A stretch of DNA of 47,859 bases, taken from assembly GCA_902515765.1 (NCBI GenBank), contig CABXVZ010000008.1, positions 1 through 47,859 on the forward strand. The letters are read 5' to 3'. Position 1 is the stretch's first letter. Each line of letters starts with the position of its first letter. Below are positions 11,336 to 42,451 of the stretch, one piece after another. Under the pieces are notes generated by a model. It had not been told where the DNA came from, made no database searches, and saw only the letters and a list, made by a program, of their open reading frames with translations. This stretch comes from an uncultured Alphaproteobacteria bacterium. Its GTDB lineage: Bacteria > Pseudomonadota > Alphaproteobacteria > HIMB59. The translations under genes and the position numbers were made by a program.

Positions 11336-12168
11336 CCGTCGCCACACTTTCTGATGTTTTACAAAAAGCAAAAAAAGATAAATATGCAGTTGCCGGACTA
11401 GTTGTTCTAGGTTGGGAAGATGCCAGATGTTATGCAGAAGTAGCAGAAGATTTAAATTTACCTGTAATTTTACAAGCGGGCCCTGGCTGTAGAGCCAACA
11501 CTCCGGTGCCAATACTAGGTAAGATGTTTAGATATTTAGCAGACCAATCAAGCTGTCCAGTTGTATGCCACTTAGATCATGGCTATACAAAAGAAGAATG
11601 TATGGAGGGAATAGATAGTGGATTTACCTCAATTATGTTTGACGGTTCTAAACTTTCTCTAAATGAAAATATAGAAAAAACCCATGAAATTGCTGAATTA
11701 GCTCATAAAACCAACATTTCAGTTGAAGGCGAAATAGGATTTGTTGGATACAGTGAAGGAGCAGAGTCTCAAAACACTGATCCAACACAAGCTAAACAAT
11801 TTGCTGAATTATCTGGATGTGATGCCATGGCTATTAGTGCTGGCAACATACATTTACAAACAAACACATCATCTTCTATTGATTTAGAGGTGATTGAACA
11901 AATTGAAAAATTAACTGACGTTCCTTTAGTCTTGCACGGGAGTAGTGGAATTGATTATCCTTTAAGACGCAGTATCGCTAATAATACAAATGTTTGTAAA
12001 TTCAACATTGGGACTGAACTCAGAAAAACATTTGGCGATACCCTCAGGGAAGAGATTACAAATGACCCTTCAATCTATGATAGGATTCAATTAATCAAAT
12101 CTACATTACCTAAATTAAAAGAGACAACTAAAAAGGTATTGGAGAATATCTCTCAATTTAGTCATTAA
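11332..12168 (+). CDS. iolJ: Class II aldolase, likely 2-deoxy-5-keto-gluconate-6-phosphate aldolase
   Basis: Zn-dependent class II aldolase of the FbaA/GatY/IolJ family, 278 residues. Metal and catalytic stretches are CHLDHGYTKEE, SIMFDGSKLSLNENI, VEGEIGFVGY, AISAGNIH and LVLHGSSGIDY, all where the fold requires them. In this context it should cleave 2-deoxy-5-keto-gluconate 6-phosphate to dihydroxyacetone phosphate and malonate semialdehyde. Sequence alone does not exclude tagatose- or fructose-bisphosphate as substrate. The ATG overlaps the iolB stop (ATGA), and its own stop overlaps the galM ATG (TAATG). Confidence 0.85.
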   Translation: MTVATLSDVLQKAKKDKYAVAGLVVLGWEDARCYAEVAEDLNLPVILQAGPGCRANTPVPILGKMFRYLADQSSCPVVCHLDHGYTKEECMEGIDSGFTSIMFDGSKLSLNENIEKTHEIAELAHKTNISVEGEIGFVGYSEGAESQNTDPTQAKQFAELSGCDAMAISAGNIHLQTNTSSSIDLEVIEQIEKLTDVPLVLHGSSGIDYPLRRSIANNTNVCKFNIGTELRKTFGDTLREEITNDPSIYDRIQLIKSTLPKLKETTKKVLENISQFSH

Positions 12169-24307: not shown

Positions 24308-26086
24308 CTAAAAGTATTTAATTTTAATTTTATCTGTCTGATCTGATTTTTTTTTGAAATCGACTACTTTAATATTAGTAGGTTTTGAAGGAGCTTGAGT
24401 TACCTTAGCTGCAATAACTTTATCATCATCATTAGCCTGAATATTTTTTGTAGTAACATTTTGGCTTGAGAGAGATGTCTTTTTTGTATGACCAAACATT
24501 CCCTCTAAAATAATATTAGGATCAATATCTTCTTTTTCAAATGTTTCAAAAATACTTCCATCCCTAAAAACAAGCACGCGGTGACAAAGGCCAATAAATT
24601 CTTCTAGTTCACTTGAGAGAAATATCACTGTTCCTCCTTCATTTACAAAGATCCTTAAATGTTTGTAAAGATCCCTCTTGGCGCCTACATCAATACCTCT
24701 AGCTGGATCGTTAAGAATTAAAATTTTAGGTGTAGTTGTAAAAGCCCTGGCAATCATAACTTTTTGTTGATTACCGCCACTTAGTGAGGTTATGAGATTA
24801 TTTTTAGGCCCAGTTTTTATGCTTAGTCTCTCAACTTCCCAATCAAAAATTCCATTTAATTCTATCCATTTAATAAAACCTAAAAATCCCCCTGAGGTTT
24901 TTGCCTGCTTGCCTTTATAAAGGGGAATAACCATATTTTCATAGATACTCATATTTGGAAATATTCCCTCTTTTTTTCTATCCCCTGAGACATACCCAAT
25001 ACCACTTTTTTTAGCTTCTAATAAGCTTTCAACTTTTTTAAATTCTTTTTTTGTTAATTCTCTTTCCTCATCAGATTGCTTAACAACTACTTCTCCACTT
25101 AAGGGTTGATCGATACCAGATAAAGCTTTTACAAAATTATCTTGCCCTTGTCCATCAAGGCCAGTCACCCCTAGTATTTCACCTTTTGGAAGTTCGAAAT
25201 TTATTTCTTCACCATTCTCCCATACTTTTAAATTTTTGGATGATAAGACTATCTCATCAGTTTTAGAAAGAGGGGGTGCCGATCTATTTTCTGAAGCAGT
25301 CGAAAATTTTTTGTCTCCTGTCATTAGGCGGAGTAAGTTTTTTTCTGTTATTTCATCTCCAGCTAAAACTCCAACATCTTTCCCGTCTCTCATAACAGTT
25401 GCTCTATCGCTTATTCGGACTAATTCTGCAATTCGATGAGTTACAATAAATATTGCAGCACCCTGATCACGTAATGATCTCATTTTTGCAAAAAGCCTTT
25501 CTGTTGAATCGAAGTCTAAAGCAGCTGAAGATTCATCTAAGATTAAAACTTTTGGATTTCTTAAAAAAGCCCTTCCAATTGTGATCCAAGCCTTCATCCC
25601 TAAAGAAAGTTGGCTAGCAATAGTGTAGGGATCCACAAACTCACCAGCAAGCTCCAACATTATAGAGGCTGCTTTTTCAACTTTTTCTCTATGACTTAAT
25701 TTTTTTCCAAAAAATGAGTCATATCCTATAAATAAATTTTCATAGACAGTTGCCTCTTCTGCAATCATAACTTCCTGGAACACTGTTGAAATTCCAACTT
25801 TTTGAGCCTCAATGGGAGAGTTAGGAGAATGACCCATTATTGAAACTTTTCCTTTATCTAATGGAAGAACTCCAGAAATTACTTTAGCTAAAGTGCTTTT
25901 ACCGCATCCATTGCCGCCAACAATGGCGTGTATTTCACCAAAATTTGCTTTGAAATTAACTCCGTTTAGAGCTTTTGTAACGCCAAAAGATTTATCAGCA
26001 TCCTGGACGTATATATCCCCTCCGGCTTTTGGAGAAGATAGCGCTTGATCTTCAGAAGCGCTATCTTGAATTTTTTCCTCATTCAT
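24308..26086 (-). CDS. Sugar-type ABC transporter ATPase with two fused cassettes (RbsA-like)
   Basis: 592-residue cytoplasmic ATPase with two ABC domains, the RbsA arrangement. Walker A in the first is GGNGCGKST (57-65). The first signature is degenerate (LSLGMKAWI instead of LSGGQ) and its Walker B reads LILDESSAALDF, not the usual DEPTAAL. The second cassette has the reduced Walker A region typical of RbsA (TGLDGQGQ), an intact LSGGNQQKV signature and a Walker B LILNDPARGIDVG. About 20 residues precede the first cassette and about 55 charged residues follow the second. It powers the importer formed with the two large permeases on the opposite arm and the binding protein just upstream (13-nt gap). 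Confidence 0.92.
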   Translation of the reverse strand: MNEEKIQDSASEDQALSSPKAGGDIYVQDADKSFGVTKALNGVNFKANFGEIHAIVGGNGCGKSTLAKVISGVLPLDKGKVSIMGHSPNSPIEAQKVGISTVFQEVMIAEEATVYENLFIGYDSFFGKKLSHREKVEKAASIMLELAGEFVDPYTIASQLSLGMKAWITIGRAFLRNPKVLILDESSAALDFDSTERLFAKMRSLRDQGAAIFIVTHRIAELVRISDRATVMRDGKDVGVLAGDEITEKNLLRLMTGDKKFSTASENRSAPPLSKTDEIVLSSKNLKVWENGEEINFELPKGEILGVTGLDGQGQDNFVKALSGIDQPLSGEVVVKQSDEERELTKKEFKKVESLLEAKKSGIGYVSGDRKKEGIFPNMSIYENMVIPLYKGKQAKTSGGFLGFIKWIELNGIFDWEVERLSIKTGPKNNLITSLSGGNQQKVMIARAFTTTPKILILNDPARGIDVGAKRDLYKHLRIFVNEGGTVIFLSSELEEFIGLCHRVLVFRDGSIFETFEKEDIDPNIILEGMFGHTKKTSLSSQNVTTKNIQANDDDKVIAAKVTQAPSKPTNIKVVDFKKKSDQTDKIKIKYF

Positions 26087-26099: not shown

Positions 26100-27260
26100 C
26101 TAAATTAAAGGCTCACCATTATCAAAGAAGTTGTTTAGATAATCGTCACTTGCCCAGTTTTCGATTCCAACAGTTCTAAACTCACTAGAGTTTCTGTCAC
26201 AATCTTCAGGTACAAATGATTGAATAGTTTCTACATCTTCTTCATATGGAGGCACAAGAATAGATTGTATCTTTAAACCTTGACCCTTCATTGTCTTTAA
26301 AAGAACGTTCATTGCAAATTCTGCGTCGTCCCCTGGAGGCCAAGCATAAACAGCTCTATCGATGAAATCAGGATTATTTCTCCAATAACAGAAAGCTCCA
26401 ATCTCTCCACCTAGGGCCATTGGCACCATTGGTCTACCAGAAGATTCTAATGCATTTAAAGCACCAGACTCACCAGAAGATTGAACTGCAAATCCATCTA
26501 CTTGAGTAGTATTTGCAGATAGCCATTTCTGAAGTTCTGCTTGAGCAATTTGTGGAGTCCACATATGTGCAATTTCAGCTACAACAGTAATGTCAGGATA
26601 TTCTGCAAAACCTTTTAACATACCAGCATGCTGGGAGTCAGAGGCTGAAGCGCCTGGAATACCTTCCATGATAATAACGTTTCCTTCACCACCAATACTC
26701 TCGGCTAACCAAGAAGCAATATAGTAACCAGTTAAAGCATAATTAACTGAAGTACTGATTGCATATTCTGATGTCAAAAAACCAGTCATAGAAGCTGTTG
26801 GTACACCTTTACCATATGCATATTCAATAGTAGGGTTTAAAGCTACAGGGTTTGAACAACATACGATAAGTCCATCAACACCTTGGTCAACTAGTTGTCT
26901 CATTTGTTGAATTTGAACAGCATCTTTTAGGTTAGATTGAGTAACTACGATATCATTTAAGATACCTGCTTCCTTCATCTTTGGAAGGTAGTCACCGTAT
27001 AATCTTTCCATAACACCTTTTCTCCAAAGGTTACCAGCATAAGAACTTGCGTATCCAATAGTCCATGGAAGAGGTCTATCACTTTTCCAATTTCTATAAA
27101 CACTTTCACCCAAAGGCTGCATAGGATCCATAAAATCAGGATCATAAACATAGTCCCTAATGTCGGCAGGTATTTCATCTAGGATATCAGCATTTGAAGT
27201 TCCTGCGATACCGATGAAACTAATAGCAAAGATTGCGATAAATTTTCTTAACATTGCCAT
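26100..27260 (-). CDS. Periplasmic substrate-binding protein of the central ABC importer
   Basis: 386 residues, with signal peptide MAMLRKFIAIFAISFIGIAG and likely cleavage after SNA at residue 24. The mature part belongs to the ribose-binding (Peripl_BP_4) group: the strand-turn QGVDGLIVCCSNP, EGIPGASASDSQHAGMLKG, and a hinge region around residues 250-330. The start at 27260 is supported by AAGGAGG located 6 nt upstream, the strong type of site seen for abundant proteins. It heads the minus-strand arm; its permeases are on the plus-strand arm across a 140-bp gap. The substrate is unknown; the linked carboxylase/lactamase genes argue for a nitrogen heterocycle or amide rather than an ordinary sugar. 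Confidence 0.9.
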   Translation of the reverse strand: MAMLRKFIAIFAISFIGIAGTSNADILDEIPADIRDYVYDPDFMDPMQPLGESVYRNWKSDRPLPWTIGYASSYAGNLWRKGVMERLYGDYLPKMKEAGILNDIVVTQSNLKDAVQIQQMRQLVDQGVDGLIVCCSNPVALNPTIEYAYGKGVPTASMTGFLTSEYAISTSVNYALTGYYIASWLAESIGGEGNVIIMEGIPGASASDSQHAGMLKGFAEYPDITVVAEIAHMWTPQIAQAELQKWLSANTTQVDGFAVQSSGESGALNALESSGRPMVPMALGGEIGAFCYWRNNPDFIDRAVYAWPPGDDAEFAMNVLLKTMKGQGLKIQSILVPPYEEDVETIQSFVPEDCDRNSSEFRTVGIENWASDDYLNNFFDNGEPLI

Positions 27261-27400: not shown

Positions 27401-28180
27401 TTGGTAGACCTAAATTGTGATATGGGTGAAGGATTTGGTATATATTCCTTTGCTGAAGACTCCGAAATAATGCCCTTCATAGATGCAGCCAACGTTGCTT
27501 GTGGATTTCATGCATCTGATCCTAATACAATGCGAAAAACTGTTGAATTGGCAAAAAAACATAATGTCAAAGTTGGTTCTCATCCCGCATATCCAGATTT
27601 AGTAGGTTTTGGCCGAAGACCTATGAAAATGCAAAGAGAAGAAATTAAAAACTTAGTTATGTATCAAACAGGGGCTCTGAAAGCTTATTTAGAAGAATTT
27701 AAGCTTCCCTTGAATCATATCAAACCCCACGGCTCTTTATATGGAGTGTCTGCCAAAGAAGAAGATGTAGCTCATGGAATAGCTGATGCTGCAGAAATTT
27801 TTGGAGTAGGCATTTTTGGAATGGTGAATACTTTTCATGAAAAGGTTTACAAAGAAAGAGGTATTAAATTTATAGCGGAGTTCTATTCGGACTTAGAATA
27901 CGACGAGACAGGATATTTAGTTATTGCTAAAGGAAGAAATAAATATTACCCAGCAGATTTAGCTGTTGAGAGGTGTATGAGAGCTATTAAAGAGAATAAG
28001 GTTAAGACAGTTAATGATACAGATATTGATGTTGGATGTGAAACTATATGCGTTCATTCGGATACACCCAATGCCATTGAAATACTTCAAGCATTGAGAA
28101 AAAATATGTCTCAAAACAATCTCCCAAAAGAACCAAAAGATATAACTGATAAAAAAATGCCATATATAGTTTCCGATTAA
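27401..28180 (+). CDS. pxpA: PxpA-like protein (LamB/YcsF family)
   Basis: 259 residues of the LamB/YcsF family, whose characterised member PxpA is the third subunit of bacterial 5-oxoprolinase. Diagnostic blocks are VDLNCDMGEGFG at the N-terminus, NVACGFHASDP, GSHPAYPDLVGFGRR, IKPHGSLYG and CVHSDTPNA near the end. The start must be TTG at 27401: the conserved VDLNCD begins at the next codon, a stop lies in frame upstream, and AAGGAGG sits 4 nt before. The 3' end overlaps the biotin carboxylase ATG by one base (TAATG). Position opposite PxpB- and PxpC-like genes supports one functional set. Confidence 0.92.
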   Translation: MVDLNCDMGEGFGIYSFAEDSEIMPFIDAANVACGFHASDPNTMRKTVELAKKHNVKVGSHPAYPDLVGFGRRPMKMQREEIKNLVMYQTGALKAYLEEFKLPLNHIKPHGSLYGVSAKEEDVAHGIADAAEIFGVGIFGMVNTFHEKVYKERGIKFIAEFYSDLEYDETGYLVIAKGRNKYYPADLAVERCMRAIKENKVKTVNDTDIDVGCETICVHSDTPNAIEILQALRKNMSQNNLPKEPKDITDKKMPYIVSD

Positions 28181-29688
28181 TGAAAAAAATTTTAATAGCC
28201 AACCGAGGAGAAATCGCAATTAGGATTATCAAGAGCTGCAAGGTACTCGGATATAAGTCCGTAGCTGTTTATTCAGATGCAGATAAAAATGCTAAGCATG
28301 TTAAAAGGGCTGATGAGGCTTTTCATATCGGGCCAAGTAAATCACAAGAAAGCTATCTTAATGCAGACAAGATAATAAAAGTTGCTATGGAGGCTAAAGT
28401 AGATGCTATACATCCAGGCTTTGGTTTTTTATCCGAAAATGATCAATTTGCTCAAAAAGTAATAGATAATCAAATTATATGGATTGGGCCTAAGCCAGAA
28501 ACTATTCGATCAATGGGAAACAAGGATGTTGCAAGAGACCTAGCCCTTAAATCTCATGTTCCCATCTGTCCTGGACTTAATGAAATAGATAAATTGAGTA
28601 AGCAACATTTAAAAACCGAATGTGAAAAGATAGGATTTCCAATTTTAGTAAAATCTAGTGCCGGTGGTGGAGGCATTGGAATGAATATCGTAAGTAACTA
28701 CGAAGACTTAGAAAAAGCTATAGAAAAAACTTCTACCTTAGCCAAAAAAGCATTTGGTGATGGGAGTATTTTTTTAGAAAAATTTATTACTAATGCCAGA
28801 CATATCGAAATCCAAGTATTTGGTTTTGGTAAGAAGGGCTCTGTTCATTTATTTGAGAGAGATTGTTCAATGCAACGAAGGTATCAAAAAATAATTGAAG
28901 AGTCTCCAGCACCTAAAATCTCTAGAGACACTATAGATAATATGGCTTTATCGGCTATCAAATTAGCATCTTATGTAAATTACCAAGGTGCAGGAACAGT
29001 TGAATTTATTTATGATATGGATGAACAAAAATATTATTTTCTGGAAATGAATACACGTATTCAAGTAGAACACCCCGTAACAGAATTAGTTACAAATAAC
29101 GATTTAATTTCTATGCAAATAAATTTTGCTTTTAATAGAAAAATCAAATTTTTAAATCAAGAAAAGATTTCTAGCTATGGCCACGCAATAGAGTGTCGAG
29201 TATATGCAGAGGATCCAGAAAAAAATTTTTTACCTTCTCCTGGAAAAATTTCAAAGATGATATTCCCTGATCCTCCAAATGGTATTCGTCTTGATTGGGG
29301 TTTTGAGGAAAATGAAGAAATAAGTTTTTATTATGATCCCATGATTGGAAAAATTATATCTCATGATTTAGTTAGAGAGGATGCCATCGATAAATTAATT
29401 GCATACTTAAAAAAAATTCAAATTAAAGGTATTAAAACGAATATCCCATTTTTAATTTCACTCTTGCAAGACAAAAACTTTCAAGAAGGCAATCATAATA
29501 CAAAATACATTGAGAATAATTTAAATTTATTGATCTCCAATATTGCCCCTAATAATAATTTAGAAAATTTAAATAGCGTGGATCCCAAAAAAATTAAAAT
29601 ATCAGAAACTGATAAATTAGGCATAATGAGAAAAGAATCTAAATCTTTAGACAATGGAGAAAAAATGAAAGTAGTATTCTTCGATTAA
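28180..29688 (+). CDS. Biotin carboxylase subunit, urea-carboxylase/PxpABC-associated type
   Basis: 502-residue ATP-grasp enzyme that carboxylates biotin on the small carrier protein using ATP and bicarbonate. Blocks: KKILIANRGEIAIRI, the ATP-binding glycine loop AGGGGIGM, ERDCSMQRRYQK with Tyr in place of the common His, and FLEMNTRIQVEHPVTELV. The loop GGGGIGM, rather than GGGGRGM of acetyl-CoA carboxylases, is as I recall it in urea-carboxylase-type enzymes; this is from memory and should be tested by alignment. About 50 residues beyond the normal 450 form a C-terminal tail of low complexity (NLNLLISNIAPNNNLENLN). It starts on the PxpA stop and precedes the large permease by 3 nt. Confidence 0.9.
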   Translation: MKKILIANRGEIAIRIIKSCKVLGYKSVAVYSDADKNAKHVKRADEAFHIGPSKSQESYLNADKIIKVAMEAKVDAIHPGFGFLSENDQFAQKVIDNQIIWIGPKPETIRSMGNKDVARDLALKSHVPICPGLNEIDKLSKQHLKTECEKIGFPILVKSSAGGGGIGMNIVSNYEDLEKAIEKTSTLAKKAFGDGSIFLEKFITNARHIEIQVFGFGKKGSVHLFERDCSMQRRYQKIIEESPAPKISRDTIDNMALSAIKLASYVNYQGAGTVEFIYDMDEQKYYFLEMNTRIQVEHPVTELVTNNDLISMQINFAFNRKIKFLNQEKISSYGHAIECRVYAEDPEKNFLPSPGKISKMIFPDPPNGIRLDWGFEENEEISFYYDPMIGKIISHDLVREDAIDKLIAYLKKIQIKGIKTNIPFLISLLQDKNFQEGNHNTKYIENNLNLLISNIAPNNNLENLNSVDPKKIKISETDKLGIMRKESKSLDNGEKMKVVFFD

Positions 29689-29691: not shown

Positions 29692-31962
29692 ATGGTTTCT
29701 CAAATCATAAATACTATCAAGCCTTCACAAATCTCTGGCTCTGACCCTCAATCTTCAAAGTATTTAATCGTTCCTATCTTCATATTTTTTGCTTTAATTA
29801 TTTTTGCTCTTATAAGAGGTCCTCAAATTATATCTCCTTCTGGAATAGGAACTGCCATAATGGTCTCTACACCTTTAATACTAGCTACGTATGCACTTAC
29901 CGTATTAGCTCTTGCAGGCCGAGTAACAGTGGACTTATCAATGGGTCCCTTGATCGGTTTTATAAATGTAACCACAATCCAATTATATGGAGCGGGGTAT
30001 ATTCAATCGCCCGTTGCATACTTTGTTTGTGCTATTGCAATTGGAGTTATTTATCAATTCTTATACGCCTTGATCGTTTTATTTGTTCGTGTCCAACCCA
30101 TTATCGTTGCATTAAGTATGTTTTTGGCTTTTTCTGGGATAAATCTAGTAATTTTACCCAGACCAGGGGGAAGGGCTCCTGACTGGATGTTATCTTGGAG
30201 TGCTGGAACTGAAATTATACAACCTGTTCTCATACTCCTCATATTCTCAACATTAATTTGGTATGCGCTAACTCATACAGCATTCTGGCAACATTTAAAG
30301 TTAATGGGCTCTGATGAAAAATCAGCTTATACCAGTGGCGTTAGAATTTATTTAGTTAGAATTGGTGCTCATATAATAGGTGGCGTATACGCAGCTCTTG
30401 CAGCCATTGCTTTTACCGGTTTGATTGGTTCTGGTGATCCTACCCAAGGCACAACATATACACTTATGGCAATAACAGCATTAGTGCTTGGAGGTTCTAG
30501 TTTAGTAGGGGGTCGAGGAGGTGCTTTCGGGGCAATCCTTGGAGCGCTCAATATCTATTTAATTAATTTTATATTATCTACTTTTCGATTTGAAAGGTTT
30601 CAAAGTTTTGTAACAGATTTATCTTACGGAGCTGTTTTAGTAGCCTCGCTATTAATACTAATTGCCCTTCCTTACATCCAAAAAGCTTTAAAAAATTTAT
30701 CTGTCTTTGTTTTCTTTATAATAGGTATGTTGAGTGCCGCTGCTGTTCAAATTCACATGAAATTTGATCAAGTTACGCGAGGAACAGTCGGCGGGTTTGG
30801 CGGAAAGTCAAAAGATGCAGAAATTTTTGAAAAAGCCCTCGAGTCGGGCAGTGATTGTTTAATCACAGGTAAAGCATGTGCAGAAGGAGGTAACTCGACA
30901 GTATGGTTGTTTATTGCTATAGGAATTGCCTCTTTAATTTACCTTATTTACCTTTTGGTCAAGCATAGAGATGCACCCACAGTTTCTTTTATAATTGCAT
31001 CAATTGTAATATTTTTTGGATGTGTCTTTAGCGGAACTAGAGCTGTTAACTTTGTTAATCAAGACCTAGGATCCAACTTACAGTATATCTTAAATTACGC
31101 ACCACAGTATTTTTCATCAGATTATTTAAGAATTGGATCTGGATTACCTGACTTTACTTCCTCAAGCTTTTTAGTAGGCATTACCTATGCAATAGCAACA
31201 CTTGCAGGAATAGTATTTTTCACCTCAGCTATTGTTATCATTGCCTTACCAAAGTTTAGAAAAGAAATAAAAACTCAAACGTTAGTTCTCTTTGCAATCG
31301 TAGTTTCAATTATTGTTTTTGCTGGTGTCGCATATTATGGTGTTGAAGCTAATAGACAGAGTTTCTTTGGCATAGATGGATATGCGGTTATTCTTATATG
31401 TCTTTTATTATTTCTTCTTACAGCTCCGACATTATTAACTCAGGTTAATTTAAATAATATATTTATTGTATTCTTAGGAATACTAGCAATTTTAGGAGTT
31501 TATTTTTTAGCATCTCCTTCAGGTACAATTATATCAGATGATGGTTCAAAATATTTCACTCCTATTATAACAGAACTTAATATTGGTGATACCTCATCAG
31601 TTGCCTATAGTAGGCCTGTAAGAGGAGATTTCTTAGGAGAAAATATTACTTTCCTCAAGGAAACAGGTTTAATCATATTTGCAATTTTTGTGTTCCAATT
31701 TTTTACTTACCTGACCCTGCAAGGAAGAGTTACTTATGCTAGATTTAAGTCATACATACCCTTATTAAGCATAGCGGCTCTTACTTGGTCAGCTTTATTT
31801 TATGGAGTTGGTTATCCATTTTGGAAAATGCTCTTAATTACTTCCGCAGGTATCTTATCTGCTCCTTTAGTATGGCAGGCATTTAGTGTTTATAAAGTGA
31901 AGCTTAAATCTCAGGAAGGGCTTGAAAAATGGGGAGGCCTAACAGAGGATAGGGAAAACTAA
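29692..31962 (+). CDS. ABC importer permease with a 400-residue membrane extension
   Basis: The N-terminal part (about residues 25-338) is a BPD_transp_2 permease: repeated helices, LAGRVTVDLSMGPLIGF, the LKLMGSDEKSAYTSGV coupling loop and ALVLGGSSLVGGRGGAFGA. The C-terminal 410 residues contain about ten further predicted helices, linked by a soluble loop with two Cys (DCLITGKACAEGG) and by NQDLGSNLQYIL and SSDYLRIGSG regions. At 756 residues it is more than twice the family length. I do not recognise the second half; it may be an additional channel or a dimerisation module. The gene is co-directional with biotin carboxylase (3 nt) and the second permease (5 nt). Confidence 0.85.
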   Translation: MVSQIINTIKPSQISGSDPQSSKYLIVPIFIFFALIIFALIRGPQIISPSGIGTAIMVSTPLILATYALTVLALAGRVTVDLSMGPLIGFINVTTIQLYGAGYIQSPVAYFVCAIAIGVIYQFLYALIVLFVRVQPIIVALSMFLAFSGINLVILPRPGGRAPDWMLSWSAGTEIIQPVLILLIFSTLIWYALTHTAFWQHLKLMGSDEKSAYTSGVRIYLVRIGAHIIGGVYAALAAIAFTGLIGSGDPTQGTTYTLMAITALVLGGSSLVGGRGGAFGAILGALNIYLINFILSTFRFERFQSFVTDLSYGAVLVASLLILIALPYIQKALKNLSVFVFFIIGMLSAAAVQIHMKFDQVTRGTVGGFGGKSKDAEIFEKALESGSDCLITGKACAEGGNSTVWLFIAIGIASLIYLIYLLVKHRDAPTVSFIIASIVIFFGCVFSGTRAVNFVNQDLGSNLQYILNYAPQYFSSDYLRIGSGLPDFTSSSFLVGITYAIATLAGIVFFTSAIVIIALPKFRKEIKTQTLVLFAIVVSIIVFAGVAYYGVEANRQSFFGIDGYAVILICLLLFLLTAPTLLTQVNLNNIFIVFLGILAILGVYFLASPSGTIISDDGSKYFTPIITELNIGDTSSVAYSRPVRGDFLGENITFLKETGLIIFAIFVFQFFTYLTLQGRVTYARFKSYIPLLSIAALTWSALFYGVGYPFWKMLLITSAGILSAPLVWQAFSVYKVKLKSQEGLEKWGGLTEDREN

Positions 31963-31967: not shown

Positions 31968-33359
31968 ATGGAAAAAAGAATATTTAATTTTTCTAAGGGT
32001 TTAGGAATTTTCTTTGCGGTGGCTGCAGGAATTGGGACGGCCGTATTAGGGTATGTCGATAGAACTGACTGGATACAGGTTGCATTCTACTCCGTTGCAG
32101 TCACGGCATTAGTCCTATGGGGTTGGCATCATTTCTCCATTAAGTGGTCCTATAAGTTATCTGAAAAAAAAGATATCTCAGAGCAAATTGATGCAATTGA
32201 AGAATCTGCTAAAAGAAGTTTATTCTGGGAATTAATCTCTCGAAATTGGATTGCTGTCACAGGATTTCTCCTTTTATTAGCATTATTCATTCTATTATGT
32301 TTTCTAGTTCCGGGATTCTTTTCCGGAAGAACAGTTGTATCAGCAATAATTTTTTTAGGTTTTTTAATACTTGCCTTTGTTGCCTATAAATTCTTAAACA
32401 TAAATAGAAGTGTCATCATAGGTGTATCAGTGTTGATAGGTCTTTTTATTATAGGTTCAGTTTCAATTGATGGTTTCTTGTCTATTCAAAATATAAAATC
32501 AATGTTGGTCTTTGCATCCTTCTTAGGTCTTGCCACAATAGGACAAACACTTGTTGTGATGCTTGGAGGTCTTGATCTTTCTATTCCCTTTTTAATTGGC
32601 TCATCGAACTTAGGTTTAATGTCAATGATTTCTCTGGGTGTTCCCCCTTGGCTAGCTTTCATAGTTATTTTAGTCTTTGGAATTCTTGTCGGTTTGTTTA
32701 ATGGACTAATAAGTTTTAACCTCCAAGGACAGGCGCTCATTGTTACCCTGGGTGTAGGTTTTATGTGTGTGGGAGGAGTTCAAATTTTAGTTTCTCTACC
32801 AACTGTTACCGGTGGTACAGTTTTCGGAGTTGTCCCAGATTGGTTAAAAAATCTAGCATCCTTAAATGGAAAATTTTTTGGTCTTCCAATACCACCTGTC
32901 ATTTTAATTTGGATTCTTGCTTCCATCGTATTGATTGTTGGCATGAGACATACTAAATGGGGAAGAAACTTATATGCTGTTGGAGGTAAAAGACTTTCAG
33001 CTGATAGATTATCAATATCTGAGAGAGTTTATTGGGTAGGAGTTTTTGTTATTAGCGGTTTTACATCAGCGGCCACCGGAGCCATGCTTTTAGGATGGAG
33101 TGGAGGAGGTTTTATTGGAGTAGGTGACCAATACCTATTTTTAACAGTTGCAGCAGTAGCAGTTGGTGGCACTTCTTTATTAGGAGGATATGGAGGATAT
33201 GGATATACCGTTATAGGCTGTTTAGCCCTTCAAGTTATAAGTACATTTCTTGCAGGTCTTGGTTTAAGTTTTGAGGGACAGCAATTTATTTTTGGCTTAT
33301 TGATTCTTCCACTTGTTGCGCTTTATTCTCGAGCCCCTCATATAAGAGAGCAAATATGA
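31968..33359 (+). CDS. Second ABC importer permease, extended N-terminus
   Basis: 463 residues. The C-terminal part (about 165-455) is a BPD_transp_2 permease: TIGQTLVVMLGGLDLSIPFLIGSSNLG, GQALIVTLGVGFMCVGG, the GRNLYAVGGKRLSADRLSIS coupling loop and GGTSLLGGYGGYGYTVIG. The first about 165 residues hold four predicted helices and a short charged segment (KLSEKKDISEQIDAIEES) between them, which common family members lack. It forms a pair with the 756-residue permease. Its TGA is overlapped by the ATG of a possible 43-residue ORF (ATGA). Confidence 0.88.
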   Translation: MEKRIFNFSKGLGIFFAVAAGIGTAVLGYVDRTDWIQVAFYSVAVTALVLWGWHHFSIKWSYKLSEKKDISEQIDAIEESAKRSLFWELISRNWIAVTGFLLLLALFILLCFLVPGFFSGRTVVSAIIFLGFLILAFVAYKFLNINRSVIIGVSVLIGLFIIGSVSIDGFLSIQNIKSMLVFASFLGLATIGQTLVVMLGGLDLSIPFLIGSSNLGLMSMISLGVPPWLAFIVILVFGILVGLFNGLISFNLQGQALIVTLGVGFMCVGGVQILVSLPTVTGGTVFGVVPDWLKNLASLNGKFFGLPIPPVILIWILASIVLIVGMRHTKWGRNLYAVGGKRLSADRLSISERVYWVGVFVISGFTSAATGAMLLGWSGGGFIGVGDQYLFLTVAAVAVGGTSLLGGYGGYGYTVIGCLALQVISTFLAGLGLSFEGQQFIFGLLILPLVALYSRAPHIREQI

Positions 33360-33487
33360 TCAACAGTTTTTTTATACATATATATAAGACAGAGGGAATA
33401 TTCGTTTCATTTGCTGAAACAAAAACTTATAATGCTATTGTTTTAGGTAATATATTTAATACAAGAGGAATAAGTAAGGTAAAATGA
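33356..33487 (+). CDS. Possible 43-residue ORF joining permease and rhodopsin genes
   Basis: ATG overlaps the permease stop by 4 nt (ATGA at 33356-33359) and its TGA overlaps the rhodopsin ATG by 4 nt (33484-33487), so the short frame exactly fills the gap with couplings on both sides. The encoded peptide begins MINSFFIHIYKTEG and has no clear membrane segment. The double overlap is suggestive of a leader or coupling ORF, but AT-rich sequence produces such frames by chance, and no family is recognisable. Confidence 0.3.
   Translation: MINSFFIHIYKTEGIFVSFAETKTYNAIVLGNIFNTRGISKVK
33428..33433 (+). promoter_or_regulatory. Possible -10 element upstream of the rhodopsin gene
   Basis: A perfect TATAAT lies 50 nt upstream of the rhodopsin ATG. 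The hexamer 17 nt before it (TTTCAT, 33405-33410) is a poor -35. The element could give light- or growth-dependent expression of the rhodopsin and flotillin genes separate from the upstream operon. Confidence 0.35.
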
Positions 33488-34182
33488 ATAAAATGTTATT
33501 ACCCTACGATATCGTAGGAGGATCTTTCTGGTTAATTTCAGTTGCTATGATTGGTGCAACCTTATTCTTCTTTTTTGAGAGAAGTAAAGTTAGTGTCCGA
33601 TGGCATACCCCAATGACAATGATTGCGGTTGTCTGCCTTATGTCTTCAATTCACTACTTTTTCATTAAAAATTTATGGGTCGTTAGTGGAACAGCCCCAA
33701 CTATTTTGAGATATGTAGATTGGTTTTTAAACTTTCCAATGCAGGTATTAATTTTTTACGCAATGCTGACTTCAGTAGTGAAAGTCAAACAAGGAATGTT
33801 TTGGAGGCTTTTAGTTGGAACATTAGTTTTTATCGTAGCTGAATTTTTAGGTGCTGCTGGATATATGAGCAAAACACTCGGTTTCATTGTTGGATTAGTT
33901 GGATGGCTTTACGTTCTTGGAGAGCTTTATGTTGGAGAAGCTGGAAGAGCAAATGCAAAATGTGGTAACGAAAATATCCAAATGGCTTTTTTCTCAAACA
34001 GATTAATACTGACTATTGGATGGGCTATATATCCTATGGGATATTTTATAGAGCATCTGGGTGGAGGTATAGACCCAAACAGTGTTAATATAATTTATAA
34101 TTTAGCAGATTTTTTAAATAAAATTGTCTTTGGATTGATTATCTATAAGGCAGCAACACAGGACACAAGAGCTAATGCTTAA
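33484..34182 (+). CDS. Proteorhodopsin-family protein with non-canonical Asp-Asn-Ile helix C motif
   Basis: Seven-helix retinal protein of 232 residues. The retinal Lys is K213 in NLADFLNK, with counter-ion partner D209. His57 matches the proton-acceptor-linked His of proteorhodopsin (PR H75) and R76-Y-V-D79-W matches PR R94-D97. The helix C motif differs from canonical pumps: Asn83 takes the place of PR Thr101 and Ile90 replaces the proton donor Glu108. The spectral tuning position (PR 105) is Gln87, as in blue-absorbing variants. A missing carboxyl donor usually means slow Schiff-base reprotonation, so a weak pump, sensor or regulatory function is plausible. Nothing but a short peptide precedes helix A; no retinal-synthesis gene lies in the window. 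Flotillin follows after 30 nt. Confidence 0.93.
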   Translation: MNKMLLPYDIVGGSFWLISVAMIGATLFFFFERSKVSVRWHTPMTMIAVVCLMSSIHYFFIKNLWVVSGTAPTILRYVDWFLNFPMQVLIFYAMLTSVVKVKQGMFWRLLVGTLVFIVAEFLGAAGYMSKTLGFIVGLVGWLYVLGELYVGEAGRANAKCGNENIQMAFFSNRLILTIGWAIYPMGYFIEHLGGGIDPNSVNIIYNLADFLNKIVFGLIIYKAATQDTRANA

Positions 34183-34194
34183 AAAAATCAATCT

Positions 34195-34204
34195 AGGAGG
34201 TGAT
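34195..34204 (+). promoter_or_regulatory. Very strong ribosome site for the flotillin gene
   Basis: AGGAGGTGAT is a 10-base perfect match to the complement of the 16S rRNA 3' end. Its GGAGG core ends 12 nt before the flotillin ATG (34213), slightly long, with a second AGG close to the start. This is the longest anti-Shine-Dalgarno match I found in the window and predicts high translation of the flotillin. Confidence 0.7.
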
Positions 34205-34212
34205 AAATAGGT

Positions 34213-36198
34213 ATGAACATTACAAGCGGAGCAGACATAATTGCAGTCATTATTTTAATAGCTTTAGCTATAGCTATTATCGTTTACTTACTTCATTGGT
34301 TATACAGAAGATCCTCTAAAGAAGTAGCATTTGTTAGAACTGGAATGGGTGGCGAGCAAGTCGTAATTAGTGGCGGTGCTTTTGTATTACCTATTGTTCA
34401 CAATATTACTTCTGTCGGAATGAAGACCTTGAGTATTGAAGTTCAAAGAAATGGAAATAAGTCTTTTATTACAATGAATAGGATGAGAGCTGAAGTCACA
34501 GCAGAATTCTATGTTAGGGTTGCCCCTAATAAAGAGGCTGTTTCTATAGCAGCACAAACACTTGGAAACAGAACCTTAGAACCGGATAGTTTGAAAGAAC
34601 TAGTTCAAGGTAGATTTGTTGATGGTTTAGGCGTAGTGGCTGCTAAAATGAGCTTAGATGAAATTCAGGAAAATAGATCAGAATATATTAAAAAAGTAGC
34701 AGCTCACGTTGAAGAAGCTATTAAGCATACAGGGTTAGAACTTGAGACAGTTTCCTTAACCTCTCTGAACCAAGCACCTGTAAATGTTTTTGACCCATCT
34801 AACACTTTCGATGCTGAAGGATTAACGCAAATCACAGAGTTTACTCAATCCAGAAAGAAAAAAAGAAATGATATTGAAAAAGATACTGAAGTTAGTATTA
34901 GAAATAAAAACCTTCAATCTATTAAACAAACACTCGAAATAGAGAAAGAAGAAGAATTTTCTAAGTATCAGCAAAAAAGAGAAATTGAACAACAAAGAGC
35001 TATTGAAAACACTGAAACTATAAAAACAAAATCTGAAAAAGAAAAAGAGTCTGAGTTAGCTGAAATATCTTCTCAAAAGGATATTGAAATAGCAAGAATA
35101 GGTAAAAAAGATTTTGTCGAAATGGAAAAAAGTATTCAAGAAACAAAACTTATTCAAGAAATTGAAAAAAGAAGAAAAGAACAAAATGAATTTAGGAAAC
35201 AAACCGATATTGAAATAAAACAAAGAGACGTTGATACTGAAAAATCAATTCTTGAGTTAGAGCGTGATGTCGAATTTAGCCGTTTGGAAAAACAAAGATC
35301 TGTTGACATAAAACTAGCAGAAGAAAAAGCTCAAACAGCAAAAGAAGAAGCCAGAAAGAGATATGAGTCTGAAGAGGCTTACATTATGGCTGAAGAGCAA
35401 ATTAAAAACGCAAAAACTGCTCAACAAAAAAATGTTGACTCTTTTAAAATTGCTGCTGAACAGGAAACTAGAGTTTTAGATATTGAAAAAGCTAAGAGAA
35501 TTGAAATTGAAGAGAAGCAAAAACAACAAGAGGTTCTCGAAAAGTCTAAAAATGTCTTAAAAACTAAAATGGAAGAAGAGGTTGCTCGAGCGAAGGCTGT
35601 AGAGGCAGAGGAAAAAGTTAATTCTATTAGAGATATCGAACAAGCTGAAAAAGCAAAAGCTCTTGGAGTAATTGATGCTAGTAAGAATGCTGAAAGAGAA
35701 AAACTGGCTGCTATGGCTGCTAAAATAAGATATGAGATTGAAGCTTCTGGCAAAAAAGCCCTTAATGAAGCTGAAAACTTAAGAAGTGATGCAAGTAGAA
35801 GAAGTGCATTAAGATTAAAATTAGCAGAAAAAATCGAAGGCATTATTAGAGAGTGGGTCAAGCCAATGCAGAATATCGACTCTATCAAAGTTGTAGATGT
35901 TAACGGCTTACCTGGTTTTAGCCAAGGTGGATCTTCAGGCGATAAAACCGGATCAGAAGGTTCTTCGGCAAGTTATGGTGGAGACTCCAAAAAAGGCTCT
36001 CTTGCAGATAACGTAGTTAACTCAGCTCTAAGATATAGAGCTCAACAACCTTTCTTAGATAGTTTACTAAAAGAAATCGGGATGTCCCCTGGGGAAGCCA
36101 GTAATATAAGAAATATTTTAGGAGACTACGAAGATCCTAAAAAAGATAAACATATGAGATTTGACGAAGATACAAAAAAAAATCCAAAAAAGAAATAA
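34213..36198 (+). CDS. Flotillin/YqiK-type SPFH protein with long coiled coil
   Basis: 661 residues. A single membrane helix lies at about residues 8-30, followed by basic YRR and an SPFH/band-7 domain to about residue 215, then a coiled coil to about 540 dominated by Glu, Lys, Gln and Ile. A Gly/Ser-rich linker (GSSGDKTGSEGSSASYGG) separates it from a C-terminal helical segment with a basic end. Domain order matches bacterial flotillins of the YqiK kind, which assemble large membrane scaffolds or microdomains. The usual small NfeD-type partner is not adjacent. Its neighbour is the rhodopsin, 30 nt upstream, and the SCP2-like protein 10 nt downstream, suggesting a membrane-organising role for these partners. 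Confidence 0.9.
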   Translation: MNITSGADIIAVIILIALAIAIIVYLLHWLYRRSSKEVAFVRTGMGGEQVVISGGAFVLPIVHNITSVGMKTLSIEVQRNGNKSFITMNRMRAEVTAEFYVRVAPNKEAVSIAAQTLGNRTLEPDSLKELVQGRFVDGLGVVAAKMSLDEIQENRSEYIKKVAAHVEEAIKHTGLELETVSLTSLNQAPVNVFDPSNTFDAEGLTQITEFTQSRKKKRNDIEKDTEVSIRNKNLQSIKQTLEIEKEEEFSKYQQKREIEQQRAIENTETIKTKSEKEKESELAEISSQKDIEIARIGKKDFVEMEKSIQETKLIQEIEKRRKEQNEFRKQTDIEIKQRDVDTEKSILELERDVEFSRLEKQRSVDIKLAEEKAQTAKEEARKRYESEEAYIMAEEQIKNAKTAQQKNVDSFKIAAEQETRVLDIEKAKRIEIEEKQKQQEVLEKSKNVLKTKMEEEVARAKAVEAEEKVNSIRDIEQAEKAKALGVIDASKNAEREKLAAMAAKIRYEIEASGKKALNEAENLRSDASRRSALRLKLAEKIEGIIREWVKPMQNIDSIKVVDVNGLPGFSQGGSSGDKTGSEGSSASYGGDSKKGSLADNVVNSALRYRAQQPFLDSLLKEIGMSPGEASNIRNILGDYEDPKKDKHMRFDEDTKKNPKKK

Positions 36199-36208: not shown

Positions 36209-36598
36209 ATGAGTATAGATATAAAATCTTGGGCTAAGAAATTTAAGGACCTCACTGAAAGTGACGAAACCATTAAAGCTATGGCTAAATATTATACCTG
36301 TTCATTTCTATTTGATATGGAAAGTGTCAAAGTCATAATTGAAATGCATGATGGTAAAGTTAAGAACATTAATACTAGCCCTGGGGGATTAGATCCTTAT
36401 GACTTTGCTTTAAGAGCATCTGAAAAAACATGGAGGGAATTTGCAAAGCCTATTCCAAAACCAATGTATCATGGTATCTATGCAGCTTCTTTTAGAAGAG
36501 ATCTTTTAATTGAAGGCAATCATCTTATATTGATGCAAAATATCAGAAACTTTGTTGTACAATTTGAGCTTCTCAGAAAATCAGGAGTTCCAGTTTAA
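36209..36598 (+). CDS. SCP2-like small protein
   Basis: 129 residues. The pattern of a beta-rich middle (VKVIIEMHDGKVKNINTSPG), followed by DFALRASEKTWREF and a glycine-helix region ending GNHLILMQNIRNF, resembles the sterol-carrier-protein-2 fold. In that fold such domains bind lipids or other hydrophobic ligands. No membrane segment or signal peptide is present, so it is probably cytoplasmic. It sits between flotillin and an alpha/beta hydrolase (28-nt gap to the hydrolase). The SCP2 call is from the sequence pattern and position, not certain; a ligand-binding accessory for the hydrolase is inferred. Confidence 0.65.
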   Translation: MSIDIKSWAKKFKDLTESDETIKAMAKYYTCSFLFDMESVKVIIEMHDGKVKNINTSPGGLDPYDFALRASEKTWREFAKPIPKPMYHGIYAASFRRDLLIEGNHLILMQNIRNFVVQFELLRKSGVPV

Positions 36599-36626: not shown

Positions 36627-37490
36627 ATGGCAGTTAAACATCACGACCCCATCGGTAGATACGTAACAATAGAAGTTGATGGACAGCAATATAAAGTATT
36701 TTATCTTTCAAATGGAAAAGGTACTCCTTTAGTTTGTCAGCATACTGCCGGTTGCCATAATCACCAATGGAGAGGATTGCTGGAGGATGATGAAATTACT
36801 CAAAACTACCAAGTAATAGCATACGACCTTCCAAGGCATGGTAAATCAGACCCAGCTCATAATACTGAATGGTGGAAAGAAGAATATAAGCTTACAGCAG
36901 AACACTATTGTAATTTTATATTAGAACTTTGTAAGGCTTTAGATCTAGATAACCCTATATTTATGGGGTCTTCTTTTGGTGGAAATGTTGCTCTCCAGCT
37001 CGCATTAAAATATCCAAATAAATTTAAAGCAGTTATTCCAGTCGAAGCTGCCCATTATTCTCCAGGCTTTTATATTGATTGGTGGAGACATCCTCATGCT
37101 AACGCAGCCCAAGTTTGTGGAAGTGGAGTATGGGATTTAATGGCCCCTCAATCTCCTGATATGGACAGATGGCTTACATGGCATTATTACACTCAGGGCT
37201 CAGAGGCCTTTAAAGGAGATCTCCATTTTTATTCTGTTGATCACGACTTAAGAGATGAACTGCAAAATATAGATGGCCATAAATGCCCTGTTATTATGCT
37301 AACTGGTGACTATGATTACTTAACACCACCTGAGGCAACTGAAGATACAGCAAGACAAATCAAAGGAGGTGTATATATCGAGATGAAGGATATTGGTCAC
37401 TTCCCTATGAGTGAGAACCATGAACTTTTCCGAGTATATCTTTTAGAAGCCCTAAGAATAATTAAGGAAAAAACTGAATATAATTCTTAA
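36627..37490 (+). CDS. Alpha/beta-fold hydrolase
   Basis: 287 residues. The nucleophile elbow is GSSFGG with Ser116, the acid is Asp228 or Asp230 in LTGDYDYLTP, and the His is H258 in DIGHFP. The oxyanion-hole region HTAGCHNHQW (39-48) is unusual in having many polar residues. It shows no signal peptide. The ATG is preceded by AAGGAG with 8-nt spacing. Family members hydrolyse esters, amides, carbamates, lactones or C-C bonds, so the substrate is open; the neighbouring symporter and dimethylformamidase-like genes favour an amide or ester of a small compound. Confidence 0.9.
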   Translation: MAVKHHDPIGRYVTIEVDGQQYKVFYLSNGKGTPLVCQHTAGCHNHQWRGLLEDDEITQNYQVIAYDLPRHGKSDPAHNTEWWKEEYKLTAEHYCNFILELCKALDLDNPIFMGSSFGGNVALQLALKYPNKFKAVIPVEAAHYSPGFYIDWWRHPHANAAQVCGSGVWDLMAPQSPDMDRWLTWHYYTQGSEAFKGDLHFYSVDHDLRDELQNIDGHKCPVIMLTGDYDYLTPPEATEDTARQIKGGVYIEMKDIGHFPMSENHELFRVYLLEALRIIKEKTEYNS

Positions 37491-40096: not shown

Positions 40097-42451
40097 ATGT
40101 TAAAAATAACAGGGTATAGTGATAAATATTCAGCTCATCCGGGCGAAGAAATAAAATTTTATATAAATGCAGAGAATAATGACAAATTTGATGTCCAACT
40201 TGTCAGACTTATTCATGGAGACACAAACCCTGAGGGCCCAGGTTATAAGGAAGAAGAAATTAGTGCTTCTTGTAATGGTTCATACCAAGGTAAAAATCAA
40301 AGAATTCATGGTGGTTCCTACATAGTTGTTCCTCAGCACGATAATTTAAATATTGAAAGCTTTACAATGCAAGCTTACATTTTCCCAACTACCCCAGATA
40401 AAGGTAGACAAGGAATTTTTACTAAATTTAATGAACAAGACAAAAAAGGTTTTGGTCTTTTTGTTGATGATAATGGATTTTTATCTGTTGAAATTGGCGA
40501 TGGTTCACAGGTTACTACTATTTCCTCTGAAAAAAAACTTCTTAGAAAAGTATGGTACCTTGTTATTGCTACTTTTGATGCGAAATCTAGAAGACTAACC
40601 CTACATCAAGAGCCAAGAGTTACATCCACTAATGGTGGATTGGGAATGGCTATCTTAAACCCTATTGAGGAAACCTCAGCTATTATTGAAACCACAAGTT
40701 CTGTTATACCGGCACCAAATGACTCTCCTGTTCTTATTGCAGCTACCTCTCTTCATAACAGATCTGGTAGAAAAATATCAGGAGGACATTTCAAGGAAGT
40801 TTTAGAGCCAATTGAATTACCCGAGCAAACTAAAATATTCAACGGTAAAATTGATAGACCAAGATTATCAAATGTTGCTTTATCAAAAGCTGAAATTGAG
40901 TCTTTAGCTTCGAGTTATGATGAGTGTAATACTCATATAAGATCTACTGTAGTGGCGGCATGGGATTTTCATGCCAATATTGGCAAAAATATTTCTTCAA
41001 CTAAAATTGTTGATACATCACCAAATAATCATCATGGCTTCATAATTAATATGCCAAATAGAGGTATGACTGGACATAACTGGACAGCAGACGAAATGGT
41101 TTTTCATCATAAGCCTGAAGAATATGGAGCTATCCATTTTCATGATGATGATATAGATGATGCCCGTTGGGATGTTGATTTTACTTTAAAAGTTCCTGAA
41201 AATTTAAAAAGTGGAGTTTACGGTGCTAGGTTAAGAGTTGATGGAAGAGAAGAATCTGAATTTGAAGATTACATTCCCTTTTGTGTAAAACCTCCCAAAG
41301 GTAAAGCGACATCAAAAATTTTATTTTTACTTCCTACTAATAGCTACATGGCATATTCAAATGACAACTTAGGTACTAATTCAGTTGTTGCACAATTATT
41401 AGCAGGAAAAGTTCCAGTCTTAAACCCTTCTGATTTATATTTAAATGAACACAGAGAGTATGGACTATCTACTTATTCATTACACTCTGATGGACATGGT
41501 GTTTCTATTTCATCAAGGTTGAGACCTATTTTGAATATGAGACCTAAATACAGACACTGGCTATCTCCTTCTCTTTGGCAATTAAACGCCGATCTTCATT
41601 TAACAGACTGGTTAGAAGAAAAAGGTTTTGAATTTGATGTTTTAACAGACGAAGACTTAGAGCATGAAGGTGTTAATCTTTTAAATAGATACAAAGTAGT
41701 TTTAACAGGCAGTCATCCTGAGTATTCTTCAGAGAAATATATGGATGCACTTGAGTCTTATCAAATGCAAGGTGGAAGATGTTTCTACCTTGGTTCAGAC
41801 GGCTTTTATTGGATCAGCGAATATCATCCTGATAACTCGAACATAACAGAAGTTAGAAAAGGTGAAGCTGGAACGAGAGCGTGGACCGCTAATCCAGGGG
41901 AGTACAATAATGCGTTTGACGGTAAATACGGAGGTATGTGGAGAGCAAGAGGAAGAATACCTTCTAAGGTATGTGGACTAACTTTTACTTCTTATGGTTT
42001 TGATGTTTCCTCATATTATAAACGAGAAGAGGATAGTTTCAAACCTGAGTGCTCATGGATCTTTGAAGGCATTGGTGCCGATGAGGTCATTGGAGATTTT
42101 GGATTAGTGGGAGGTGGAGCAGCTGGAGTAGAACTTGATCGTTATGACTTAGAATTTGGTACTCCTCATAATGCATTTTACTTAGCACGATCCCAAGATC
42201 ATTCAAATATGATGCTTCAGGTAAATGAAGAAATTCACTTTGCAGTGAGAGGCTATCATGGTGGTGGCCATGAAAACCCAATGGTTAGAGCGGATATGAT
42301 TTATTACAAAACTCCAAATAATGGAGCAATGTTTGCTCCAGGCTCTTTGGCCTGGTGTGGTAGTTTATCTCACAATAATTATAATAATAATGTATCTAAA
42401 ATTATGGAAAATACTCTCAAAGGTTTTCTAAAGGATGGACCTTTACCATAA
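40097..42451 (+). CDS. dmfA2: N,N-dimethylformamidase-like large subunit (iron amidohydrolase)
   Basis: 784 residues, near the family's about 760. Order: N-terminal strand domain with LVRLIHGDTNPEGPGYKEE (about 35-55), a LamG/concanavalin-like domain with FPTTPDKGRQGIF (about 96-108), then the DMFA2 C-terminal catalytic domain (about 370-780). In the Paracoccus enzyme a mononuclear iron is held by two Tyr and one Glu; equivalents here are Y460 in GLSTYSLHSDG, Y417 or Y420 in NSYMAYSND, and E542 with H540 in LTGSHPEY. The tail block VGGGAAGVELDRYDLEFGTP and GSLAWCGSLSHNNYNNNVSK also match. It should hydrolyse a small N-substituted amide; the natural substrate in marine bacteria is not known to me. 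Confidence 0.88.
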   Translation: MLKITGYSDKYSAHPGEEIKFYINAENNDKFDVQLVRLIHGDTNPEGPGYKEEEISASCNGSYQGKNQRIHGGSYIVVPQHDNLNIESFTMQAYIFPTTPDKGRQGIFTKFNEQDKKGFGLFVDDNGFLSVEIGDGSQVTTISSEKKLLRKVWYLVIATFDAKSRRLTLHQEPRVTSTNGGLGMAILNPIEETSAIIETTSSVIPAPNDSPVLIAATSLHNRSGRKISGGHFKEVLEPIELPEQTKIFNGKIDRPRLSNVALSKAEIESLASSYDECNTHIRSTVVAAWDFHANIGKNISSTKIVDTSPNNHHGFIINMPNRGMTGHNWTADEMVFHHKPEEYGAIHFHDDDIDDARWDVDFTLKVPENLKSGVYGARLRVDGREESEFEDYIPFCVKPPKGKATSKILFLLPTNSYMAYSNDNLGTNSVVAQLLAGKVPVLNPSDLYLNEHREYGLSTYSLHSDGHGVSISSRLRPILNMRPKYRHWLSPSLWQLNADLHLTDWLEEKGFEFDVLTDEDLEHEGVNLLNRYKVVLTGSHPEYSSEKYMDALESYQMQGGRCFYLGSDGFYWISEYHPDNSNITEVRKGEAGTRAWTANPGEYNNAFDGKYGGMWRARGRIPSKVCGLTFTSYGFDVSSYYKREEDSFKPECSWIFEGIGADEVIGDFGLVGGGAAGVELDRYDLEFGTPHNAFYLARSQDHSNMMLQVNEEIHFAVRGYHGGGHENPMVRADMIYYKTPNNGAMFAPGSLAWCGSLSHNNYNNNVSKIMENTLKGFLKDGPLP

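Follow-up and report, generated by a model that had tools for sequence, protein, structure and literature searches.

What does a bacterium do with a rhodopsin that lacks the proton donor carboxylate when its genome already encodes a canonical proteorhodopsin? The question is raised by an open reading frame at 33484-34182 (plus strand) in a 47,859-nucleotide stretch of DNA from an uncultured marine alphaproteobacterium; we refer to this whole stretch as the window. The first-pass annotation had read the product as a proteorhodopsin relative that is not an ordinary pump, and had suggested that it could be a sensor, a light-gated scaffold partner, or a protein of new ion specificity.

Identity and relatives of the window rhodopsin

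The frame translates into 232 amino acids with no internal stop, and the product is matched by the Pfam profile Bac_rhodopsin (E 3.5e-30). Residues 76-90 read RYVDWFLNFPMQVLI, which confirms the annotated Asp79, Asn83, Gln87, and Ile90 of helix C; the alignment table likewise bears out His57, Asp209, and Lys213. Ile90 occupies the position of proteorhodopsin Glu108, which leaves the window protein without the carboxylate donor of proton-pumping proteorhodopsins, and the helix-D Glu of proteorhodopsins (position 124) is likewise lost, being Ala124 here. The acceptor Asp, the Arg, the Trp/Tyr residues, and the Lys are retained. Compared with the 254-residue canonical rhodopsin of the same genome, the protein is short at its N terminus, where the difference in length lies; FArhodopsins characteristically lack about 23 aa there relative to proteorhodopsin. 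We discarded an artefact or a pseudogene given the open frame and a dN/dS of 0.010-0.048 against eight HIMB59 relatives, which indicates strong purifying selection, these ratios being rough because dS (1.4-2.0) is near saturation.

The protein is almost certainly a FArhodopsin (flotillin-associated rhodopsin) of the DNI type from a HIMB59-lineage marine alphaproteobacterium, since its best PDB matches are PsFAR entries, it falls in a single clade with 100/100 support, a flotillin gene lies downstream, and DNI has been published for HIMB59. Its closest solved relatives are 9r21 (E 7.9e-99) and 9r23 (E 1.6e-97), both named flotillin-associated rhodopsin. According to the PDB titles, 9r21 is PsFAR, 9r23 is the PsFAR double mutant H84V/E120G, and 9r22 is the light-driven proton pump PsPR. 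An AF2 model of the window protein (mean pLDDT 84.6) superposes on 9r21 with a Z of 33.0 and an rmsd of 1.4. Our literature search, which had preprints and most subscription papers outside its coverage, found no paper on PsFAR; the outcome of 9r23 is therefore known to us from its PDB title alone.

FArhodopsins have been described in Pelagibacterales, HIMB59, and Pseudothioglobus by Haro-Moreno et al. (2023, mSystems, PMC10308929), and the available text of that paper gives DNI as the replacement of the DTE motif in HIMB59. Because it names this motif and its gene cluster matches that of the window, both the family and the exact motif are already in print; our finding adds no new kind, and a new rhodopsin class was rejected on this ground. 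Searches on rhodopsin, HIMB59, and flotillin found nothing beyond this paper and PMC10308909 (2023), which, as far as its available text goes, names FArhodopsin solely in the reference list, and a search on flotillin and rhodopsin in sponge symbionts found no paper. New in this analysis are the comparisons of distribution, pocket sites, and gene order, which bear on the open question of what FArhodopsins do.

We scanned 84,980 species genomes and analyzed the best 80 of 344 relatives, of which 78 loci encode FArhodopsins and two (L124 and L126) canonical rhodopsins. One of the two scan patterns required the Lys and Lys-less freshwater FArhodopsins were not recovered; divergent members may be missed because of this pattern and because the best 80 of 344 were used. 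Viral carriage was also considered and set aside: a single scan of viral contigs gave 14 stretches that fitted a pattern, and none encoded a relative.

The tree was built from 82 distinct rows; a branch with 100/100 support separates its 56 FArhodopsins from the 26 canonical rhodopsins. Such an alignment and tree had been proposed in the first-pass annotation as a check, and they uphold its view that this is not an ordinary pump: the donor Glu and the helix-D Glu are absent in 56 of 56 FArhodopsin rows drawn from the best 80 of 344 relatives. The same 56 rows all contain Lys213, Arg76, Trp80, Tyr183, and Asp209, and Asp79 is Glu in two of them. Asn83 is found in 14 of 14 distinct HIMB59 rows and Ile90 in 13, with Val in the remaining one (L056); a DNI-type motif is common to the lineage.

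Beyond the three published groups, our tree contains a further FArhodopsin clade of large-genome alphaproteobacteria (records titled Rhodospirillaceae, Kiloniellaceae, Hyphomicrobiales, and Alphaproteobacteria), which is sister to all other FArhodopsins when the canonical rows serve as the outgroup. One of its records is named Spongia_Bin9, and others of this clade may also come from sponges. A gamma clade holds L053, from a Chromatiales MAG, and L052, from a MAG with the title CSMAG_266, and it is here that the Pseudothioglobus sequences nest. According to the available text of PMC10491686, CSMAG names come from a catalogue covering 165 samples of cold-seep sediment. A separate case of altered proteorhodopsin is the rhodopsin at L149 1498-2241 (minus strand) in genome G457 (record AG-464-B04), which sits on a long branch (0.67). 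In it, Arg94 is replaced by Lys, Asp97 by Glu, and Glu108 by Gln, and the S141 site is Trp; its locus also contains genes for a 2Fe-2S ferredoxin (PF00111) and for a pyridine-nucleotide reductase (PF07992). This sequence is in the tree but not among the 25 canonical rows used for pocket-volume and conserved-site counts.

Flotillin, ABC importer, and the parent genome

A domain scan covered 37 of the 40 open reading frames of at least 90 amino acids between 8340 and 47794; three antisense frames and the 11 frames to the left of 8340 lay outside it. The FArhodopsin gene stands among the following features.

22074-23042, minus strand: carboxyltransferase subdomains A and B (domain search)
23046-24302, minus strand: carboxyltransferase subdomains C and D (domain search)
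24308-26086, minus strand: ATPase of a sugar-type ABC importer, two ABC domains, scoring under the NCBIfam equivalog cut-offs
26100-27260, minus strand: periplasmic substrate-binding protein (Peripla_BP_4)
27401-28180, plus strand: LamB/YcsF (PxpA) family protein (domain search)
28180-29688, plus strand: biotin carboxylase (domain search)
29692-31962, plus strand: ABC permease 1, 756 aa, BPD_transp_2 only at residues 56-319; the long C-terminal remainder has no confident Pfam match
31968-33359, plus strand: ABC permease 2, sugar type (BPD_transp_2), immediately upstream of FArhodopsin
33484-34182, plus strand: FArhodopsin, 232 aa; D79/N83/I90, Q87, and K213, with F84, F116, and E120 at presumed retinal-pocket sites
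34213-36198, plus strand: flotillin, 661 aa (Flot PF15975 and Band_7 PF01145)
36209-36598, plus strand: conserved 129-aa protein, matched in 65 of 80 loci (best 80 of 344), no confident Pfam match
36627-37490, plus strand: alpha/beta hydrolase, present in 65 of 80 loci (best 80 of 344) at 80-100% identity
37505-39559, plus strand: sodium:solute symporter (SSF; domain search)
40097-42451, plus strand: N,N-dimethylformamidase-like protein (domain search)

NCBIfam gave no match for the rhodopsin, the flotillin, the 129-aa protein, or the dimethylformamidase-like protein, and a promoter and terminator scan of 33200-34400 yielded nothing above shuffled sequences. A sterol-carrier-type gene is reported in the FAR cluster in the available text of PMC10308929; the 129-aa protein is a putative counterpart. 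To the left of the cluster, 8340-13118 holds a run of genes of sugar/inositol catabolism type (GFO/IDH/MocA, PfkB, KduI/IolB, class-II aldolase, and aldose epimerase).

Flotillin lies directly downstream, at a distance of 21-150 bases, in 78 of 78 FArhodopsin loci among the best 80 of 344 relatives, the two loci without it being the canonical L124 and L126. In the window, the FArhodopsin stop ends at 34182 and flotillin starts at 34213 on the same strand, a gap of 30 bases. Within it, eight bases upstream of the start, lies a long Shine-Dalgarno-like AGGAGGTGAT at 34195-34204, which suggests that flotillin is strongly translated. FArhodopsin would be cotranscribed with the flotillin behind it, as has been published for a Pelagibacterales relative.

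Upstream, the large-genome alphaproteobacteria carry on one strand, in this order, the binding protein, ATPase, permease 1, permease 2, FArhodopsin, flotillin, 129-aa protein, and hydrolase (L123 begins inside the ATPase gene and L125 just upstream of FArhodopsin). Among the best 80 of 344 relatives, 32 of 33 HIMB59 loci have permease 2 directly upstream (the copy in L122 is broken), as do six of seven large-genome alpha loci (the sequence of the seventh stops 34 bases upstream), two of seven gamma loci (L052 and L053), and one of 31 Pelagibacterales loci, the basal L085. In the same set it is not adjacent in 28 of the 31 Pelagibacterales loci, two others having too little upstream sequence, nor in five of the seven gamma loci. 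A sugar-type ABC permease is thus found directly upstream in some loci of every main clade, but not in most Pelagibacterales or Pseudothioglobus. Since the four groups with adjacent copies span the tree, the adjacency would most simply be ancestral, with losses in Pseudothioglobus and most Pelagibacterales. Of the genomes without an adjacent permease 2 we searched 15, and 14 still have one, at 55-64% identity (the miss is G448), and 12 of these copies share a contig with FArhodopsin.

The parent genome (G000; 964,858 bases, 63.8% complete) has two rhodopsins. The second, canonical gene that the first-pass annotation had advised looking for is present at L001 1402-2166 and encodes a DTE proteorhodopsin of 254 aa whose tuning site is Gln. 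It is flanked by a polyprenyl synthetase (PF00348) on one side and an FAD amine-oxidase-type protein (PF01593), read as phytoene desaturase, on the other.

In the HIMB59 family, with FArhodopsin called at 90% identity or more, 38 of 52 genomes carry FArhodopsin, 44 a canonical rhodopsin, 31 both (parent included), and one neither. All 38 FArhodopsin-bearing genomes have flotillin. Permease 2 occurs in 40 of the 52, including the same 38, and the other two (G003 and G032) have a partial copy. Among genomes without FArhodopsin, G028, G032, and G035 retain only the C-terminal part of flotillin, G002 has a 42% relative, and G001, which is 99% complete, lacks FArhodopsin, flotillin, and permease 2. 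The FArhodopsin island is present or absent as a unit in HIMB59, apart from partial copies that may be contig breaks. The HIMB59 MAG casp150-mb.165 (G008/G442) has a second FArhodopsin, at L033 6377-7072 (minus strand; the same as L110), which groups inside Pelagibacterales and is probably contamination of the bin.

Genomes without another rhodopsin and the retinal-pocket sites

We searched 41 genomes, which come from 43 of the best 80 of 344 loci (L119 is left aside, and L056 and L110 share one genome). FArhodopsin is present in 39 of them; G471 and G473 have a canonical rhodopsin only. Another rhodopsin accompanies FArhodopsin in 22 of the 39, counting the split copy of G436 and the odd L149 of G457. 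The split copy, in a SUP05-cluster MAG, is a canonical proteorhodopsin broken into two frames at G436:C1:354002-354659. One genome (G442) has two FArhodopsins, and the remaining 16 have FArhodopsin alone. Seven of these 16 are small marine genomes, where the missing second rhodopsin may reflect incompleteness. The other nine are genomes of 3.4-5.4 Mb in which FArhodopsin is the sole PF01036 match (G438, G439, G454, G464, G466, G467, G468, G470, and G472), and they include alphaproteobacteria and a cold-seep gamma MAG.

In the genus of G235, six of seven genomes have one rhodopsin each, the FArhodopsin, at a completeness of 95-97%; five of these six are among the nine, according to contig coordinates. 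PF01036 matches are found in three of 40 other genomes of the family of G438 and in none of eight of the family of G454. The Kiloniellaceae FArhodopsin is on a contig of 394 kb; the cold-seep contigs measure 16 and 4 kb, and misbinning is possible there because they are short. No BCD/Blh was found in any of the nine. Across the 41 genomes BCD occurs in 18: 16 of the 22 with both kinds, none of the 17 without a canonical rhodopsin, and both with the canonical kind only. Its absence is a weak sign, since it is also missing from six of the 22 genomes that do have a canonical rhodopsin. Five of the nine carry a carotenoid oxygenase (PF03055), which might supply retinal by another route; the other four lack it. 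Relatives in large genomes without another rhodopsin suggest that the real job of FArhodopsin may not involve light.

The presumed pocket sites 84, 116, 120, and 137, which we take to correspond to bacteriorhodopsin T90, M118, G122, and S141, are F/F/E/G in the group of the window protein and F/F/G/W in its sister HIMB59 group. They are F/W/Q/G in Pelagibacterales, together with W180F and P184H, H/M/E/G in the gammas, and V/M/A/(S, A, or G) in the large-genome alphas. As read from these residues, bulky side chains may crowd the retinal site, the kind differing by clade. Of the 13 glycines conserved in 90% or more of 25 canonical rows, those at 120, 137, and 190 are replaced by E, Q, or W, and site 190 is not a presumed pocket site. 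The residues at these sites suggest an obstructed pocket, but the volume control is not significant: when the total volume of 16 presumed pocket residues is compared with random helix positions, the fraction as high is 0.21, 0.22, 0.37, and 0.91 in four clades and a marginal 0.052 in the W137 clade. The 9r23 mutations fall exactly on sites 84 and 120, which suggests, judging from the title of that entry, that the PsFAR authors saw these sites as an obstacle to retinal. In the large-genome alphas the pocket may be open, because sites 84 and 120 are small and position 141 is Gly.

Possible roles and comparison with known systems

The window protein has probably lost light-driven pumping. We tentatively favor a non-pumping, probably retinal-less opsin that works with flotillin on a microdomain of the ABC importer. 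FArhodopsin descends from the proteorhodopsin fold and has lost the donor, and pumping is most likely gone; retinal would probably be excluded by bulky side chains near the ring end of its site. The protein would then serve as a light-independent seven-helix membrane partner of flotillin, and the pair would gather or stabilize the upstream-encoded sugar-type importer in a membrane microdomain. This role is proposed because the gene order is common to distant clades and because of the genomes without another rhodopsin; the distribution data point to importer and flotillin as candidate partners. Physical contact among FArhodopsin, flotillin, and importer is putative, and island genes travel together for many reasons. 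The main unexplained point is the invariant Lys213, whose retention is odd if the protein never binds retinal; it may be kept, for example, to form a salt bridge with the counterion Asp residues. An evolutionary extension of this reading is more doubtful: FArhodopsin may have arisen in ordinary-sized heterotrophs as a light-independent seven-helix subunit of a flotillin-organized ABC importer and later passed to streamlined ocean plankton beside a real pump, the opsin having been recruited as a transporter or microdomain organizer that keeps the Schiff-base Lys for another reason.

Alternatively, the protein could be a photoreceptor that binds retinal (or another aldehyde or a carotenoid), runs a slow photocycle, and signals via flotillin rather than a classical transducer. 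The strong purifying selection and the conserved Schiff-base Lys, Arg, counterion Asp residues, Trp80, and Tyr183 fit this reading, which we nevertheless consider unlikely: none of the 37 scanned window proteins has a transducer or histidine-kinase domain, and the available text of PMC10308929 argues from predicted clashes that the pocket is blocked, mentions freshwater relatives without the Lys, and recounts that a DTT relative bound no retinal in E. coli (Olson et al.). Together with the Blh-less genomes, these points leave the suggested sensor without support. The suggested light-gated scaffold partner divides: the adjacent flotillin fits a scaffold, and light gating is left without support by the published case for a blocked pocket and by the relatives in genomes without Blh.

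The available text of PMC10308929 itself hypothesizes a helper of the canonical proteorhodopsin, which would assemble with the DTE pump into hetero-oligomers within flotillin microdomains and tune it in dim light. The co-occurrence of both kinds in 31 of 38 FArhodopsin-bearing HIMB59 genomes and in 22 of 39 across the wider set agrees with such pairing. As a general explanation, however, it is rather unlikely, because nine large genomes have no other rhodopsin and relatives occur in near-complete genomes of this kind, such as the six FArhodopsin-only members of one genus, five of which are among the nine; in HIMB59 itself, the 94% complete G029 has FArhodopsin and, at E 1e-10, no further rhodopsin match.

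A lipid- or fatty-acid-binding opsin, in which a lipid in the former retinal cavity sets the composition of the flotillin microdomain, is quite unlikely. By its title, PDB 8cnk is a retinal-free proteo-opsin with decanoate bound, and the neighboring flotillin fits a membrane role; yet a ligand role for the window protein is purely putative, and the residues of the presumed site vary by clade, which would alter such a site. That the protein still pumps protons or another ion in the light, using a new motif, is very unlikely despite the acceptor Asp79 and Lys213, as the donor carboxylate is missing throughout the FArhodopsin rows, the genome already has a DTE rhodopsin, and, to our knowledge, DNI matches none of the Na+ or Cl- pump triplets. 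The published argument for a blocked pocket and the relatives without Blh likewise give no support to the new ion specificity once suggested.

With canonical proteorhodopsins (GPR, Med12 4jq6, and PsPR 9r22) the window protein shares the fold, Lys, Arg, counterion Asp residues, and Trp80. It differs from them in lacking the donor Glu, the helix-D Glu, and the N-terminal leader, and in having bulky residues at 84/116/120, a flotillin neighbor, and a separate clade. PsFAR (9r21), which groups with the Pseudothioglobus FArhodopsins in our tree, is 60-62% identical to the window protein, has the same fold, and retains Glu120 in the wild type; it has T83/H84/M90 where the window protein has N83/F84/I90, and Phe at the position of His57. 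The HIMB59 FArhodopsins of PMC10308929 are the closest counterpart. As far as the available text goes, they share with the window the lineage type, the DNI motif, the adjoining flotillin, the canonical rhodopsin elsewhere in the genome, Gln or Leu at the tuning site, and a cluster with PxpA, biotin-dependent carboxylase/transferases, a translocator, a symporter, and a dimethylformamidase. The window shows the separate clade, the same-strand flotillin, DNI in place of DTE, a canonical DTE gene elsewhere, the short N terminus, and the FAR cluster; we found no difference from the HIMB59 FArhodopsins as that text presents them, and the window is an instance of them.
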